Of a DNA stretch of 64,000 nucleotides, positions 41,149-49,924 are shown in pieces. Within the stretch, counting starts at the first letter, position 1; every line of letters begins with the position of its first letter. The stretch is from contig JAJEHX010000011.1 in assembly GCA_022823465.1 (NCBI GenBank), positions 1-64,000 on the forward strand, given 5' to 3'. Origin of the DNA: Candidatus Latescibacterota bacterium. GTDB lineage: Bacteria; JAAXHH01. The notes beneath the pieces were generated by a model that saw nothing but the letters and a program-made list of their open reading frames with translations, searched no databases and was not told where the DNA came from. A program made the translations under genes and the position numbers.

Positions 41149-42558
41149 TTACTTTTCTTTTACCTGCTCCAGCCTGGTCTGGTACTTGTCGTACAGATCA
41201 GTGTGCTTGCTGCTGATATCGACCGGCCGGCCCTGGATAAAGGCCTGTTCCACCTGCGTCATGATCTCGAGCGGGTCTCCGTCGGTCACGATCAATGTGG
41301 CGTCCTTGCCCGTCTCCAGGGAACCCAGCCTGTCCTCTACGCCCAGGATGCGCGCGGGATAGAGGGTGACGGACTTGAGCGCTTCTTCCTTCGGCAGGCC
41401 GTAGGCCGCCGCGGTCGCGGCGTGATACGGGAGGTTCCGCACATTCGAACCGCCGCCGCCTTCAAGCCAGACCCTCCGTTCGCCGATGCAGAAGTCCAGG
41501 CCGGCTTCATACAGCTTCAGGGCATTGGTGAAGGGCGTGTCGTAGGGTTCCCAACGCCGTGCGGGCACATAATGCACGGCGCCGATGATCACGGGGATCT
41601 CATGTTCCTTCAGCCGATCCGCTACCCGCCAGACATCGGCGCCGCCGACCATGATGATCCTCAGGTCTTCGGCGAGGGCCCAGTCGATGGCGGCGTGGAT
41701 CTGTTTCTCTTCAGAAGCGTGGACGAAAACAGGCAGTTCCTTCTTGAGCACGGGGATCATCGACTCCCAGCCGAGATCCGAGGGATGAGAAGGCCCTCCG
41801 CCGCGCTCGGCCTCTTTCGCGATCATATACGCCCGGGCTTGGCGAAAGGCGTCGCGCAACTTCGTCAGGCTTTCCTGTCGCGCCTCGATCTGCTTTTCCC
41901 GGCTGTCCGCGCCGGGAAAGTCGAATACGCGGTAGGAAGGCCACCGCACGTGAAGGCCCACCGTGGCATCCAGGGTCATGTCTTCGGTGGTCCATCCGTC
42001 CAGCGCAATCAGACCGGAAAGACCGGCGATCAGCCCTCCGCTCGGCATGGTCAGGGCGGTCAGGATCCCGTTCGCCCGCCCCACTGGGAAGTACTCGCTG
42101 TCCGGATTTACGGCGGTAACCGCGCGGACGCTCGGGGTAATGTCCCCGATTTCGACGTTGTCGTGGGTCGCCCGTACCGAGCCGATCTCGGTGAGGCCCA
42201 GGGTGGTGGGCGCGGCGATCAGGCCGGGATAAACATGTTTCCCCGTAACGTCGATTACCTGGGTGTTTTCCGGCAGGGCCAGGTCGGTCCCTATACCGGT
42301 AATGACGCCGGACTCGAACAGCACCGTGGCGCCCTCGATGACGTCGCCGCTCACGGTATGTACGGTTCCGCCGGTCAACGCGATGGGATGCGCCTGCGGT
42401 CCGGCCGGCCTTTGTTTCGAGGCCGCGGCATCCTGGACCATGGGACCGGCCGTGAGTCCAAGTGCCAACAAAAGAACCATCGTTTCCATCCACCAGCCGC
42501 CGTCAGCGGACTTCGTTGAAGGGATCTTCCCCAGTACTAAGCGGGGTATCGCTATCAT
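41149..42558 (-). CDS. Amidohydrolase-like protein with missing N-terminal metal motif, exported
   Basis: This 469-residue protein has an imidazolonepropionase-like amidohydrolase fold. Where active enzymes read PGLIDAHTH, this one reads PGLIAAPTT (residues 111-119), so the first metal pair is absent. The start at 42558 is set by CCTCC (GGAGG) at 42566-42570. It gives a 25-residue polar lead before a hydrophobic signal segment (METMVLLLALGLTAGPMVQDAAA), implying export. The gene is 40 bases downstream of the larger amidohydrolase gene. The pair may form one complex, with this member as the degenerate partner; that is inference. Confidence 0.8.
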   Translation of the reverse strand: MIAIPRLVLGKIPSTKSADGGWWMETMVLLLALGLTAGPMVQDAAASKQRPAGPQAHPIALTGGTVHTVSGDVIEGATVLFESGVITGIGTDLALPENTQVIDVTGKHVYPGLIAAPTTLGLTEIGSVRATHDNVEIGDITPSVRAVTAVNPDSEYFPVGRANGILTALTMPSGGLIAGLSGLIALDGWTTEDMTLDATVGLHVRWPSYRVFDFPGADSREKQIEARQESLTKLRDAFRQARAYMIAKEAERGGGPSHPSDLGWESMIPVLKKELPVFVHASEEKQIHAAIDWALAEDLRIIMVGGADVWRVADRLKEHEIPVIIGAVHYVPARRWEPYDTPFTNALKLYEAGLDFCIGERRVWLEGGGGSNVRNLPYHAATAAAYGLPKEEALKSVTLYPARILGVEDRLGSLETGKDATLIVTDGDPLEIMTQVEQAFIQGRPVDISSKHTDLYDKYQTRLEQVKEK

Positions 42559-42598: not shown

Positions 42599-45568
42599 CT
42601 ATGCGTCGGACGCTTCGTCGTCGGTTTCGGGCGATTTGAGCAGTTTCTGGATCAGCCTGGTCCGTTCCTTCTCCACCTCGATGCGCATCAGCCTGTCCTC
42701 ATCGACGTGGAAGTATTTCCTACCGTCGATCCAGGTCTGTTCGCACTTCGTATACGTGGACAGGGGATGGCCGTTCCAGATCACAAAATCGGCGTCCTTG
42801 CCCGCTTCGAGGGAACCAACCCAGGGATCGATGGCCAGTTGCTTTGCCGCGTTCAACGTGACGAATTTCAGGGCTTCCACCTCGTCGACCCCGCCGTATT
42901 TTACCGCCTTCGCGGCCTCGGTGTTCAGTCTCCGGGCGAGTTCATCGCTGTCGGAATTGAAGGTGACCAGTACGCCCGCGTCGTGCATCAGGGCCCCGTT
43001 ATATGGAATGGCGTCGTACGCTTCCACCTTGAAGGCCCACCAGTCGCTGAAGGCGGACGCTCCGGCTCCGTGGGCGGCGAGTTCGGGCGCGACCTTGTAC
43101 CCCTCAAGCACATGCTGGAAGGTACTGATCGTGAAACCGAAGTCTTCGGCCACCCGAAGGAGCATCAGGATCTCGTCCTGGCGATAGGAATGGCAGTGGA
43201 CCAGGCGTTCTCCCGTGAGGATCTCATGCAGCGTTTCCAGTTCCAGGTCGCGCCGGGGCGGTACGACGCCGGACTTGTCCTCAAGGGCGTTGTACCGGTC
43301 CCACGCCTGCTGGTATTCCTGTGCCGCGCGGAAACGATCCCGGATGATCTGTTCGACGCCCATGCGGGTCTGGGGATACCGGTCGCTGAGGACGCGCCAG
43401 TTGCTGCGCTTGACGTTCTCGCCCAAGGCAAACTTGATCCCCGGCCTGGCCCCGGTGAACTTGAGTGCCTCGGGACCCATCCCCCACCTCAGCTTGATGA
43501 CCTGGTTCTTGCCACCGATCGGATTGGCAGAGCCGTGCAGGATGTTGGCCGCGGTGAGACCACCGGCCAGCTCCCGGTACATGGCGATATCGTAGCTGTC
43601 GATTACGTCTCCGATGCCCACCTCGGCGGTCACGGCCTGCGTCCCTTCGTTGATGCCCTCCAGGATGGCCGTGTGCGAATGGGCGTCGATGATGCCGGGC
43701 GTGACGTGTTTGCCGGTTCCATCGATTTCCACGGCGCTTTCCGGTGCTTCGAGGCCTGTGCCTACTTCCGCGATCTTGCCATCGCGGATCAGCACATCCG
43801 CGTTCTCCAGCTTGCCACGATCGTCCAGAGTCCACACCGTGGCGTTCCGCACGATGACGTATTCCGGCTGTGCAGGCGGGTTGTTTCTACCGAATGCGCC
43901 TGGCGGATACAGGGTGGGAGGTTCGGTGATTTCCGCAGGCACCGGCATGTTGGATGTTTCCACTTCGTGCGCCGCGGTCCTGGCGGCGGACCAGCTCAGG
44001 CTTTCGCCGTTGGGCCGTACCACGCGACCTGCGACGCGATCGCCTTGGATCGAACCGGAGAATCGCCAGACACCGGCTTCCCCAAGCGCTTCGTCTTCCA
44101 CGCTGAATGCAATGCGCGCATCGTCCAGTTCCATGCGGTCCGCCTTGATGGTGGCCCCGTCCTGGTCTATCGTTCCCCTGAGCGCGCCGAGCGTACCGTC
44201 GATGGACAGCGACAGGCTGTCCTCCTGCACGACGACCGCCCATGTGCCACGGGGATCGACGAACGGCCGGGGCGAGATCACGTGTCGGTTACCCGCGACC
44301 CACACGTCCTGCACCCCAACGTTCTCCGCGAACAGGGGGCCATCGGTGATGGTCATGTTGGCCAGTTTGCCTGGCTCCAGAGTTCCGAGATGGCGGCTGA
44401 GACCGAGCATGGACGCGGGGGTCGTGGTCAACGCGGCCAGCGCGGCTTCATAATCCAGCCCGTGCTCGATCGCCTCACGCACCCGGTCGTGAAAACCAGC
44501 GCTTTTGCCTAGTCTTGTACTGCTCAGCGCGATGGGTATCCCGGCCCGGTGCAACTGACCTGGATTCCCGGGCGCCAGTTCCCAGTGCCGTAGTTCTTCC
44601 AGGGTAACATCCACGGCGTCTTCCGGCGTGGAAACGGAGAGGTCCTCCGACCGGGGAAAATCAAGAGGGAGGATGATGGGGGCGCCTGCTTCGCGGACCG
44701 CTTCCAGCATGCGATACTCATGGCCGCTCCCCCTGACGAGGAATCGTAGACCGAATTCCTCGGCCAGACGGACCGCGCGCAGGAAGGCATGATCGTCATC
44801 GACGCTCATGAGTACGGCCTGGCCGCGGGCGATCACCCCGTCCAGCGCCGCCAGCGCGTCGTTGTCCTCCGGGCGGTCCTGCCGGGGATTCGTGGCGTAG
44901 GCCGCGTGGGCGTTCCGGTACCATTGCGCGTCGAGGATTGTCTGCCGCATCAGCGCCACGACGCCCATCATTGACGCCGGATAAGTGCGGTTCCGGTTTC
45001 GTTTCATGCGAACATGTTGGAAGACGCCGCGCTTCAGGAGGTTCTCGTTGGGCGTCCCGCTGCCCAGGTTGACGGCCGCGCTGCTTCCCGCGAAAACACC
45101 GCGGTCCGCCACGACCATGGCTGCCGCGAATCCGGACTGCCGCAGCCTGGCGATCTCCGCCTCACTGACACGATATGCATCGGCTGCCGAGCGTTCGGGA
45201 CGGACCGAGGGATTCCAGTAGGCGGAACCCGCGGTCTCGTCCTCGCCCGCTTCAGACAGCCCGGCCTGCGTGAACATCTCGATCAGGCCAGGATAAATGG
45301 TCATGCCGGAGTAATCCCATCGCCGGGCATCCGGTGGGATGTCGGCGGACGCTCCCGCCGCCACGATCAGTCCGTCCCGGATGACCACGACCCCCTTGTC
45401 GATCACGAGATCGGGCCGGACGTATATCCGCGCATTCTCCAGGGCGTGGACCCTGGAAGGGTTCTCGCGCAGGCCCGCCTGCGGCGCCGTCTGCTGGGCT
45501 TCCGCGACGAGGTTTACCGCCCCGGCCAGCAGTACGGCCGGGACTATAATCCAATACTTCTTCAACAT
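42599..45568 (-). CDS. Large exported protein with two amidohydrolase domains
   Basis: The product has 989 residues and a signal peptide (MLKKYWIIVPAVLLAGAVNLVAEA). The N-terminal half is a degenerate amidohydrolase domain: the metal motif is PGLIEMFTQAG instead of PGLIDAHTH. The C-terminal half is complete, with DAHSHTA (His at 630 and 632), LVHCHSYRQDEIL, ISTFQHVLEGY and LVTFNSDSDEL carrying expected metal ligands. The start at 45568 is supported by AGGAGG at 45575-45580. Such paired domain proteins are common in Bacteroidota and Gemmatimonadota-like genomes; the substrate (perhaps a cyclic peptide or amide) is unknown. Confidence 0.87.
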   Translation of the reverse strand: MLKKYWIIVPAVLLAGAVNLVAEAQQTAPQAGLRENPSRVHALENARIYVRPDLVIDKGVVVIRDGLIVAAGASADIPPDARRWDYSGMTIYPGLIEMFTQAGLSEAGEDETAGSAYWNPSVRPERSAADAYRVSEAEIARLRQSGFAAAMVVADRGVFAGSSAAVNLGSGTPNENLLKRGVFQHVRMKRNRNRTYPASMMGVVALMRQTILDAQWYRNAHAAYATNPRQDRPEDNDALAALDGVIARGQAVLMSVDDDHAFLRAVRLAEEFGLRFLVRGSGHEYRMLEAVREAGAPIILPLDFPRSEDLSVSTPEDAVDVTLEELRHWELAPGNPGQLHRAGIPIALSSTRLGKSAGFHDRVREAIEHGLDYEAALAALTTTPASMLGLSRHLGTLEPGKLANMTITDGPLFAENVGVQDVWVAGNRHVISPRPFVDPRGTWAVVVQEDSLSLSIDGTLGALRGTIDQDGATIKADRMELDDARIAFSVEDEALGEAGVWRFSGSIQGDRVAGRVVRPNGESLSWSAARTAAHEVETSNMPVPAEITEPPTLYPPGAFGRNNPPAQPEYVIVRNATVWTLDDRGKLENADVLIRDGKIAEVGTGLEAPESAVEIDGTGKHVTPGIIDAHSHTAILEGINEGTQAVTAEVGIGDVIDSYDIAMYRELAGGLTAANILHGSANPIGGKNQVIKLRWGMGPEALKFTGARPGIKFALGENVKRSNWRVLSDRYPQTRMGVEQIIRDRFRAAQEYQQAWDRYNALEDKSGVVPPRRDLELETLHEILTGERLVHCHSYRQDEILMLLRVAEDFGFTISTFQHVLEGYKVAPELAAHGAGASAFSDWWAFKVEAYDAIPYNGALMHDAGVLVTFNSDSDELARRLNTEAAKAVKYGGVDEVEALKFVTLNAAKQLAIDPWVGSLEAGKDADFVIWNGHPLSTYTKCEQTWIDGRKYFHVDEDRLMRIEVEKERTRLIQKLLKSPETDDEASDA

Positions 45569-45640: not shown

Positions 45641-46165
45641 CTACATCAATTGTTCAACGACCTTCTCCAATGCCTGGTCGATACGGTCGGAGAGGCCTTT
45701 ACCGTCGAGCCGGCCAATGGGATGATCGATTTCGATGATGGGATAATCTCCGTGGCCCAGTTGCTCCGCCATGACCCTCGCGGTGTGTGCAAAGTTCGAT
45801 GTGCACAACAGCGCGGACGGCAGTTCAAGGTGCTCGAGCATGAGGGCATCGTGCATGCTGCACGCGCTGCAGGACCCTCAGTCGCCGACACCCACCAGCG
45901 CGAAATTGCACCGCCGCACGATGAGATCGGTCATCTCCTCCGACAGTACGCGGCTCGCGCTTTCCTTGGTGTATTCGAGGGCTTCCACGGGATGATTCAG
46001 GCGCTTGCGCAAGCGCTCGAAGACGCCGCGCAGGACCACATCCGAATTGGGCTTGCCGTTACCCACCAGTGCGGCGACGGTGTGTCGGGAACCGAGTGGA
46101 CGCCTGGCCAGCCGAAGGGCCGAGGCGCTGGCGGAGGCTGTGGGATCTACGAGGGTTACGGGCAT
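45641..46165 (-). CDS. UGSC-family selenoprotein with an in-frame TGA (selenocysteine)
   Basis: A 95-codon frame from ATG 46165 meets TGA at 45878-45880 and continues in the same frame to a normal stop at 45641, giving 174 residues if TGA is read as Sec. The junction reads GVGD-U-GSCSACSMHDA, the hallmark UGSC motif: Sec96, Cys99, with a further Cys102. Upstream text (ALVGNGKPNSDVVL, RRCNFALVGVGD) and downstream text (SALLCTSNFAHTARVMAEQL) match my memory of UGSC-family (seleno)proteins on both sides, which argues against a nonsense mutation. The U/C pair implies a thiol/selenol redox or detoxification role; the reaction is unknown. It is the last gene of a three-gene operon. Confidence 0.88.
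45841..45880 (-). promoter_or_regulatory. Candidate bacterial SECIS hairpin after the selenocysteine codon
   Basis: Starting 13 bases after the TGA, CGTGCA (45859-45864) pairs with TGCACG (45850-45855) around a GCA loop. The outer bases TGAGGG (45875-45880) and CCCTCA (45841-45846) could also pair and enclose it. Position and size agree with bacterial SECIS elements, which lie in the coding sequence just behind UGA. The loop lacks an obvious bulged U, so the identity is tentative. Confidence 0.45.
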
Positions 46166-47239: not shown

Positions 47240-47632
47240 TTACTTGCCGTAGTAATTTTCCAGATAGGTCAATATCGTGTCTTCGGTTTTCTTGTCGAAC
47301 TTCTTCAATCCCTTTTCTGCCTGCATCCACCGGATGGCGTCCAGCCACTCCGCGCGGTTCGCCCGGTAGGAGCGGATGATCTGTGTGGGATGGCACTGGG
47401 CGCATTCCCGCTCTACGACCGGATAGCCGTCGCCCATGATCAGCCTGGTCCGTTGGTTCAACTCCAGTCCCGTCTTCGGGTCGAACATCGCCACCGGCTT
47501 GGCCGCCTCGGCCCTGGCATTGGCCAGCGCGATTTTCGATCTTTCCGCTTCATAATAGATCAGGCCGATTACTATGGCATCGAGAACGATGACAAACGCG
47601 ATCTGGCCAAGGACCCGCAGAAAGGGGTTCAT
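47240..47632 (-). CDS. Membrane-anchored monohaem cytochrome c
   Basis: The product has 130 residues: an N-terminal membrane anchor (about 8-27, LGQIAFVIVLDAIVIGLIYY), a charged linker and one haem motif, CAQCH at 77-81. M103 in AIRWMQAEKG is the likely distal ligand. The ATG at 47632 has AGGAG in front. It ends 8 bases before the UGSC partner gene, so cotranscription is very likely. It could pass electrons between the menaquinone chain or a PQQ enzyme and the selenoprotein pair, which is inference. Confidence 0.85.
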   Translation of the reverse strand: MNPFLRVLGQIAFVIVLDAIVIGLIYYEAERSKIALANARAEAAKPVAMFDPKTGLELNQRTRLIMGDGYPVVERECAQCHPTQIIRSYRANRAEWLDAIRWMQAEKGLKKFDKKTEDTILTYLENYYGK

Positions 47633-47678: not shown

Positions 47679-47738
47679 GCGTTATCCCGTTCTTGTACCC
47701 TGTGCTATCTCCTTCCTGTACCGAGGCGCTATCTCGGT
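47679..47738 (-). repeat. About 24-bp repeats spanning the stop codon of the TonB receptor gene
   Basis: GCGTTATCCCGTTCTTGTACC (from 47679), GTGCTATCTCCTTCCTGTACC (from 47702) and GCGCTATCTCGGTCC (from 47726) are similar in series with a 23-24-base period. The CTA at 47729-47731 is the stop codon of the receptor gene, contained in the last copy. Confidence 0.7.
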
Positions 47739-49924
47739 CCCACATTGATGGGCAGGCCGAATCCTACGTACCACGTCCTGCCCGCCGCCGGTTCAAAGAA
47801 GCGGTCCCCGAAGGCGTTGGGCACGATGGAACCATTGTAACGCGTGTCGAACAGGTTGTTGACGCCGGCGAAGAGGACGCCGCCGATCACATCACCATTA
47901 TAGGTTATTCCGGCCCGCAAATCAACGAGCGCGTAGCCGTCGTTGACGAAGTCGGATTCCGGCTTGCTGCTTCCCGGTGCGGGGCCGTTGAAGTCGTTGG
48001 CGAAGTACTCCGCGGTCCACTGCGCGTTCAATTCCAGGAAGGAGCCGCTTCCCGGATGGGCATAGGTGAATCCGGCGAACAGGTGATGGGGCGGCACGCC
48101 GGGCACCCTGTTGCCCGATAGCTGGTATCGCCGTGTGGTTTCGTCGGCCTCTCGTTCGACTTCAAAATCGTCGAACTCGAACTGCATCGCGGTGTAGGCC
48201 AGCGCCAAATCTAGCGCGGGCTGTGGAGACCAGGTCAGCTTCAGTTCAATGCCCCGGTTACGCGTCTTGCCGGCGTTTCGGTAGAAGATCTCGTCCGTGT
48301 CGGGATCGTCGATCTGGAAGGGCTGGAGCATGTTGCTGATACTATAGGCGAACAGGGCCGCGTCGTAGCTCACCCCCGCGTCGGGCAGGAAACCCTTCAC
48401 GCCGGCTTCGAAGCCGCGCAGTCGTTCCGGTTCCAGATCCGGATTGAATCCGCCTGCCTGCGTGGGCCGGTTGCTCAGTTCAGACGTGGTAGGAGTCTGG
48501 AAAGCGGTGGAAAAGTTTCCGTAGAACCCCGTGAGGGGAGCCGGGCGGAACGCTACGCCCAACTGGGGACTGAACTGCGCCATGTTCCGCGTGCCCGAGT
48601 CATCGGTCTGATCAGAGAGAAACCGGTCTGTCGCTTCGAACCCGAACCGGTCGTAGCGCCCGCCGGCGGTCAGGACGACATCCGGACGTGGCGACCATTC
48701 GAGTTCTATGAAAGGACCGAGTCCGTTCACGTTCTCGTCCTGGTCCAGCCTGAGGTCTCCCAGCGAAAGCTCGTCGAATATGCGCCCATCGGCCAGCGTT
48801 CCCACGAGGTCGCCGGGTATGCCGCCGTTCCCGTATTCGCGACGTTCGTCCCGCTGGATCTCCAGGTCCAGTCCGGCGGTCAGCCTCAACTCACCGGTTC
48901 CAACCGCGGCCTGGTGGCTGTAAACGCCCCGGGCACCGGCCCCCCGGCGATCGAGATCGATGACCCTGCCCGGGATGGGATTGAACAGCGAGCGCCCCAT
49001 CCCGAATACCGTGATCTCTCCCTGCCTGTCGTCTGTTTCGTACCTCAAAGACACGCCGCCCTGGGTCTGCTTGACCCGTTTCGAGGCGCCCTGCCGCTGG
49101 ACGAAGGATCGCGCGCTGGCCGGATTCGTCTCGGCGGTGGTTTTGTCCAGCGAACTCGGATTGAACTGGTAGGGCGCGTTAAAATAGTTGATCACGGAGG
49201 TCAGATGCCAGGCCCCGTTGATCGCCCTTGTACCCACTACGTTGATGCCGGTCGACCGCGCGAAGGCGTGGTCGCGGAACCCGTCGAACCAGAGCGAGTT
49301 GTAATTGACGAAAAACCGGTTGTCGCCGGCGCTGCCGGCCGCCTTGCCCTGTATGCGCCGAAGGCCGTGGGAGCCGGTGATGAAGCGCGGCGTGACTTCC
49401 AGCGGCGCGTCCGGGGCACCTTCGGTACGGATCTGGATGACGCCGCCCGCCGCGTTGCCGTACAGCGATGAACTCGGGCCGCGCAGCACCTCGATCTGTC
49501 CTGCCGAGGTGAGATCCAGGTTATTGAGTTGGGACTGGCCGTCGGCCATAGTCAGCGGAATGCCGTCCAGCACCACTTTAACACCGCGCACACCGAAGGA
49601 AGCCCGGCTTCCCAGGCCCCTGATGCTGATCCGGTCGCCCTGCGACACGTTGTTGCGGTTGTGCACGATGATGCCGGGCAGGCTGCGGACGCTTTCCTCC
49701 AGCGACAGCCCCGGTTCGGCAAGCTGGATCGCGTCCCGGTCCACCCGGTCCACGGCATAGGGTATGTCGAGGACATTCCGGACGTAGCGGGTAGCAGAGA
49801 CTTCGATGGGTGGAAGGACGTGATCTACGGAAACGTCTGTGGTATCCGAAGTGGACTGCTGCCAGGCGAAGGCGGGAGACAGGGGCAGAAGGAGTGCGAT
49901 ACAGGCCGGAAGGATGGTTTTCAT
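47729..49924 (-). CDS. TonB-dependent outer-membrane receptor
   Basis: This 731-residue protein has a cleavable signal peptide (MKTILPACIALLLPLSPAFA). The plug domain follows (SVRSLPGIIVHNRNNVSQGD, ISIRGLGSRASFGVRGVKVV, IEVLRGPSSSLYGNAAGGV). The rest is a long beta-barrel with alternating hydrophobic strands and an aromatic end, WYVGFGLPINVGPR. It imports a scarce ligand (siderophore, vitamin B12, or sugar) with energy from TonB; none can be chosen from the sequence. It lies 96 bases upstream of the cytochrome-UGSC operon on the same strand. Confidence 0.93.
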   Translation of the reverse strand: MKTILPACIALLLPLSPAFAWQQSTSDTTDVSVDHVLPPIEVSATRYVRNVLDIPYAVDRVDRDAIQLAEPGLSLEESVRSLPGIIVHNRNNVSQGDRISIRGLGSRASFGVRGVKVVLDGIPLTMADGQSQLNNLDLTSAGQIEVLRGPSSSLYGNAAGGVIQIRTEGAPDAPLEVTPRFITGSHGLRRIQGKAAGSAGDNRFFVNYNSLWFDGFRDHAFARSTGINVVGTRAINGAWHLTSVINYFNAPYQFNPSSLDKTTAETNPASARSFVQRQGASKRVKQTQGGVSLRYETDDRQGEITVFGMGRSLFNPIPGRVIDLDRRGAGARGVYSHQAAVGTGELRLTAGLDLEIQRDERREYGNGGIPGDLVGTLADGRIFDELSLGDLRLDQDENVNGLGPFIELEWSPRPDVVLTAGGRYDRFGFEATDRFLSDQTDDSGTRNMAQFSPQLGVAFRPAPLTGFYGNFSTAFQTPTTSELSNRPTQAGGFNPDLEPERLRGFEAGVKGFLPDAGVSYDAALFAYSISNMLQPFQIDDPDTDEIFYRNAGKTRNRGIELKLTWSPQPALDLALAYTAMQFEFDDFEVEREADETTRRYQLSGNRVPGVPPHHLFAGFTYAHPGSGSFLELNAQWTAEYFANDFNGPAPGSSKPESDFVNDGYALVDLRAGITYNGDVIGGVLFAGVNNLFDTRYNGSIVPNAFGDRFFEPAAGRTWYVGFGLPINVGPR

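Follow-up and report, generated by a model that had tools for sequence, protein, structure and literature searches.

A predicted UGSC-family selenoprotein with a constant partner gene, and its likely kinship with the selenocysteine domain of GrdB

Results

Organization of the locus

The window analysed here, a stretch of 64,000 nucleotides from a Candidatus Latescibacterota bacterium (contig JAJEHX010000011.1 of assembly GCA_022823465.1), carries on its minus strand two open reading frames, at 45878..46165 (95 aa, ending ...GVGD at a TGA) and at 45641..45856 (71 aa, beginning MHDAL...). Both lie where the original prediction had placed them, and standard translation does leave the broken gene that it had expected of normal annotation. 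When TGA 45880-45878 is read as a residue, as it had further proposed, a single minus-strand frame of 174 codons results, running from ATG 46165 to TAG 45641, with selenocysteine (Sec) as residue 96 in the context ...RRCNFALVGVGD-U-GSCSACSMHDALML... and with the seven residues GSCSACS separating the two frames.

Directly upstream of this gene lies P2, a gene of an unnamed family, for which we take ATG 47231 as the probable start in preference to a longer, 392-aa frame opening at 47405, because the latter overlaps the gene upstream. A small c-type cytochrome and a TonB-dependent receptor precede P2, and two amidohydrolases lie downstream of the UGSC gene (Table 1). Seven loci of the genus preserve the order TonB receptor, cytochrome, P2, UGSC, two amidohydrolases. 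In L047, a 3.3-kb contig attributed to a gammaproteobacterium, the end of the receptor gene, the cytochrome, P2 and UGSC are found together, an arrangement that may reflect transfer or mis-binning. To judge from isolate names, the close relatives (Candidatus Latescibacterota or Gemmatimonadetes MAGs) would be sponge-associated bacteria.

Table 1. Features of the UGSC-P2 locus (positions in the window)
Feature	Coordinates	Strand	Basis
UGSC-family gene, predicted selenoprotein, 174 aa	45641..46165	-	PF24696 E=1.8e-41; AF2 mean pLDDT 92.8
In-frame TGA, predicted Sec96, in GVGD-U-GSC-SAC	45878..45880	-	TGA in all 13 gene-bearing phylum genomes; otherwise Cys
bSECIS apical hairpin CGUGC-AGCAU-GCACG	45850..45864	-	40/41 Sec vs 0/68 Cys genes; covariation
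P2, partner gene of an unnamed family, 334 aa	46227..47231	-	adjoins UGSC in 80/80 + 30/30 loci; AF2 pLDDT 85.7
Small c-type cytochrome (CAQCH), 130 aa	47240..47632	-	NF052246 SorB-like, sub-threshold; synteny including L047
TonB-dependent receptor	47729..49924	-	PF00593/PF07715; synteny
Amidohydrolase, two amidohydrolase stretches, own AGGAGG site	42599..45568	-	PF01979/PF07969; synteny in 7 genus loci
Second amidohydrolase	41149..42558	-	PF01979/PF07969; synteny

The read-through product is a member of the UGSC family

The 174-residue product aligns with the Pfam UGSC family over residues 5-173 (profile positions 2-170 of 172), with a score of 142.5 bits, well over the gathering cut-off of 25 bits. 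Since the match spans the full profile, sequence is conserved on both sides of the TGA to an extent that exceeds chance, which bears out what had been noticed from the letters alone. The assignment to the UGSC family likewise stands on the Pfam score, although the NCBI equivalog model NF041046 was matched at 115.3 bits, under its curated cut-off of 125.

UGSC selenoproteins are already known from the GOS survey of 2008, in which 255 UGSC-containing proteins were counted among the sea's most abundant selenoproteins (PMC2398784), as well as from NF041046 and PF24696, and the gene in the window is a further member. The GOS data also include a domain, labelled 'Unknown_1', in fusion with UGSC, which is a candidate for being P2. 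It shares with the family the GVGD-U-GSC motif, the full-length Pfam match, the interchange of Sec and Cys and a SECIS element. It differs in falling under the equivalog cut-off and in having an extra Cys (SAC, residue 102), which is also present in most Sec forms and missing from most Cys forms. The present analysis adds to the known family its constant partner and a likely kinship with GrdB.

The in-frame TGA is conserved and alternates with cysteine

A search of 16 genomes from the phylum found the gene in 13, always with a single TGA in frame, in the same position and with open frames on either side of it. Among 80 loci drawn from GTDB genomes, a set that was pattern-driven and favours Cys forms, the position is occupied by TGA in 9 and by Cys in 71, and in all the homologues examined only these two residues occur there, as would be expected from the selenocysteine reading originally put forward. 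An evenly drawn sample of 397 actinobacterial genomes yielded UGSC in 29 (27 of them over the cut-off), mostly with one TGA. On the gene tree, three changes between Sec and Cys are counted, and the hypothesis of only one such change could not be rejected (p=0.10). No relatives were found on viral contigs.

The genome is also equipped to insert Sec: the prediction that the bacterium would carry SelA, SelB, SelC and SelD proved right for all four, each over its curated cut-off, in an assembly of 3.86 Mb that is 98% complete. The scores were 491.8 bits for selA (cut-off 267.9), 350 for selB (cut-off 242), 254 for selD (cut-off 125) and 70.6 for the tRNA-Sec gene selC (gathering score 47), whose anticodon is TCA according to ARAGORN and which lies some 160 bases past selB on contig C31. 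SelB over the cut-off was not found in two incomplete relatives that bear the gene (87% and 85% complete). It is present in several Cys-form organisms, and Cys forms are not generally devoid of it. The selD gene of the source genome (L016:1399-3756, contig C46) has no in-frame stop and carries an N-terminal pyridine nucleotide-disulfide oxidoreductase domain; it is probably of the Ndh-SelD type described from the GOS data (PMC2398784).

A conserved hairpin follows the TGA

A bSECIS hairpin, to which the original prediction had pointed as a check, lies at positions 17-31 counted from the UGA (45864-45850) and is encoded by the GSCSACS codons between the two frames together with the first codons of the downstream frame. 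It consists of a 5-bp stem and the 5-nt loop AGCAU (45859-45855), with a spacing of 18 nt from UGA to loop, and thus agrees with the published bSECIS model, which specifies an upper stem of 4-16 bp, a loop of 3-9 nt with G in its first two positions and a distance of 16-37 nt from the UGA (PMC13188914). Of 41 Sec genes, 40 have a 5-bp stem topped by an [AG]G loop, as against none of 68 Cys genes. Three Sec genes (L143, L154 and L167) have the compensatory pair G21-C27 in place of C21-G27; they encode Trp instead of Cys102, with a matching change at the third position of codon 104 that is silent in L143 and L154. The covariation score of the helix (0.114) exceeds that of shuffled alignments (0.068), was reached by 0 of 500 shuffles and falls when the helix is slid by 1-3 columns. 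Because of the kinship among these sequences, the counts are not independent. Identity of synonymous codons among 14 orthologues peaks directly after the TGA (0.87 versus 0.64; degeneracy-matched p=1.6e-4).

On single-sequence grounds the energy criterion for a bSECIS is ambiguous, because the minimum-energy fold prefers other pairs; its stability is not unusual (z 0.02 at 60 nt, -1.37 at 40 nt). The perfect hairpin match is the only one in the window, and the hairpin would also arise in 13% of cases if the peptide were recoded at random with synonymous codons. The strength of the case for a functional hairpin is therefore comparative, resting on aligned sequences and not on single-sequence folding. 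Since Cys forms have lost both the hairpin and the protein stretch C-S-(M/L/V)-H-D, comparison of the sequences suggests that this stretch is kept because of the SECIS hairpin that it encodes. A UGSC paralogue in another genome (L164, G512) has an in-frame TGA and is devoid of the consensus hairpin; it could use another SECIS type or be a decaying copy.

The only formal ground for regarding the TGA as a true stop, in a decayed UGSC gene or through a sequencing error, is that standard translation yields two broken frames. Against it stand the same TGA in all 13 relatives' genes, in independent assemblies and with frames open on both sides, the restriction of homologues to Cys or Sec at that position, the complete selenocysteine machinery of the genome and the covariation of the hairpin. 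We accordingly reject a pseudogene or error, whose probability we regard as negligible, and conclude from the comparative sequence evidence that the locus almost certainly encodes a genuine UGSC-family selenoprotein.

P2 is a constant partner of UGSC

P2 adjoins UGSC in all 80 GTDB loci and in all 30 further loci (110 in all), and within the phylum it occurs in exactly the 13 genomes that have UGSC. In the draw of 397 actinobacterial genomes, P2 and UGSC were each found in 29 and both in 27; the UGSC-only genomes are weak, sub-threshold matches, and the two P2-only genomes are G750, with a fragment, and G582, with a strong match. In G582, P2 was matched strongly four times on one contig (C272), in two tandem pairs, and UGSC was not found in that genome. 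Gene order varies: P2 precedes UGSC in the group to which the window belongs, in a Burkholderiales locus and in most Sec-form Actinobacteria, and UGSC precedes P2, typically with a 4-base overlap, in most Cys-form Actinobacteria. To judge from this distribution of sequences, functional pairing of UGSC and P2 is very probable.

The P2 protein had no reliable match in Pfam, NCBIfam or PDB. DGLP and Cys73 are among the positions that never vary. The best PDB matches to its fold model, which were cyclic amide hydrolases (Toblerone fold) and certain YjgF/Rid proteins, were rejected as unreliable (TM-scores about 0.2-0.3).

UGSC resembles the selenocysteine domain of GrdB

In the AF2 model of UGSC (mean pLDDT 92.8), strands and helices alternate in the order E-H-E-H-E-H-E-H-E-H. 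Foldseek retrieved no close solved structure, and its PDB neighbours include flavodoxins and not thioredoxins, so that the model points to a flavodoxin/Rossmann-like rather than a thioredoxin-like domain. The thioredoxin-like fold supposed in the GOS paper (PMC2398784) is thus unsupported by either analysis. UGSC does share with thioredoxin-like UxxC selenoproteins (Trx-like, DsbA-like) a UxxC at a helix N-terminus, whereas its predicted fold differs from theirs.

A profile of 29 UGSC proteins was aligned by hhalign with one of 21 GrdB/PrdB-like proteins with a probability of 95% (E=3.9e-8, 131 columns), so that the Sec residues coincide, LP/GIP pairs with GIP and HPIG with HPVG. The score of 61.0 compares with at most 19.9 in 30 column-shuffled controls and 19.75 in a reversed control; an earlier comparison with four GrdB sequences was in register and weak (E 0.004-0.015). 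In the review literature, glycine binding and ammonia release are assigned to the GrdB subunit, and PrdB is given as its homologue (PMC13188914). With GrdB, the selenoprotein that binds the substrate in glycine/sarcosine/betaine reductase, and with PrdB of D-proline reductase, UGSC would share a homologous Sec domain in which Sec follows the same strand at the same helix start, and the downstream GIP and HP(I/V)G motifs are common to all. Unlike GrdB, UGSC is devoid of a roughly 300-residue N-terminal part and is partnered by P2, which is unrelated to GrdE, the companion subunit of GrdB. GrdE was considered as a relative of P2 and rejected, there being no profile similarity (E=0.094) and no match to PF09338.

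We thus consider homology between UGSC and the Sec domain at the C-terminus of GrdB to be likely. A Pfam scan cannot reveal this relation, because the GRDB model (PF07355) ends just before the GrdB Sec; the UGSC protein has no PF07355 match, and a search of the source genome for GRDB-family proteins found none. In the literature, as far as the sources were accessible, we found UGSC and GrdB mentioned together and no paper linking them. Taken jointly, the selenoprotein, its functional pairing with P2 and the homology to GrdB make up a claim that we still hold to be likely, if a shade less so than the homology by itself.

Discussion

A possible role for UGSC and P2

If these relationships hold, a sequence of events can be proposed. 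SelB, bound to the hairpin just 3' of the UGA, would deliver Sec-tRNA-Sec, so that a 174-residue protein would be made instead of one stopping at residue 95. In the modelled flavodoxin/Rossmann-like domain, Sec96 would sit at the N-terminus of the helix that follows the third strand, with Cys99 as the likely resolving residue. UGSC and P2 may form a complex in which P2 would bind or activate a small organic molecule as substrate; attack on it by the Sec96 selenolate could then cleave a C-N (or similar C-X) bond reductively, whereupon a Se-S bond to Cys99 would form and a reductant would reset Sec96. The CxxCH cytochrome encoded upstream of P2 in the same direction is a possible electron carrier.

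We infer from this that UGSC and P2 constitute a two-component reductive enzyme of the GrdB/PrdB type. The reductive-cleavage chemistry must be put forward tentatively, at somewhat less than even chance; glycine-reductase chemistry in particular is only an analogy, because P2 is unrelated to GrdE and a GRDB-family protein was not found in the genome. In broader terms, we lean slightly towards regarding UGSC and P2 as the two subunits of selenoenzymes that form a so far undescribed class within the GrdB superfamily, with a minimal Sec domain and a new, non-GrdE partner acting on a small molecule in sponge-associated bacteria, Actinobacteria and Proteobacteria.

Two other functions were weighed against this. 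The pair might be a catabolic enzyme acting on an activated substrate (a CoA-thioester or amide) through a thio- or seleno-ester intermediate on Cys or Sec, and not an amine reductase. Gene neighbours speak for it: the Cys-form actinobacterial pairs sit in catabolic clusters with NDMA-dependent alcohol dehydrogenases of mycofactocin type (two, at L073:2829-3947 and L112:2869-3981, scoring over the cut-off of TIGR03989), a PaaK-like CoA ligase, a luciferase-like monooxygenase, an amidohydrolase, an SDR and oligopeptide transporters, the Burkholderiales pair lies beside a family III CoA-transferase and an acyl-CoA dehydrogenase, and two amidohydrolases come after the pair in the window. These neighbours differ among loci, however, and around the Sec-form actinobacterial pairs they are mixed, with none recurring strongly, and we judge a function of this kind rather unlikely.

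A slightly poorer chance still is given to UGSC being a thiol or selenol oxidoreductase (an antioxidant or disulfide reductase) of the thioredoxin-like fold assumed in the 2008 GOS paper, with P2 as its client or regulator. The UxxC/CxxC motif at a helix N-terminus speaks for it; the high-confidence model, however, matches flavodoxin-like domains and not thioredoxins, and the UGSC profile aligns with GrdB. A protein of this fold could nonetheless have a redox-only role. With a thioredoxin fold unlikely, the constant partner and the kinship with GrdB turn an "unknown redox protein" into a two-subunit enzyme that can be tested.

GrdB- and PrdB-like genes in Actinobacteria

Full-length GrdB genes with an in-frame TGA occur beside grdE in Actinobacteria, as confirmed by matches to PF07355 and PF09338. 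In L169-L183 the GrdB gene directly follows grdE, and ordinary annotation would truncate it, because PF07355 stops before the Sec. Also common in Actinobacteria are short proteins of PrdB/GrdB-like type whose genes have a TGA in frame within a UxxC motif (UPVCH, UPLCN or UPACT; L187-L198, L134, L135 and L138); PF07355 was matched in 76 of the 397 genomes.
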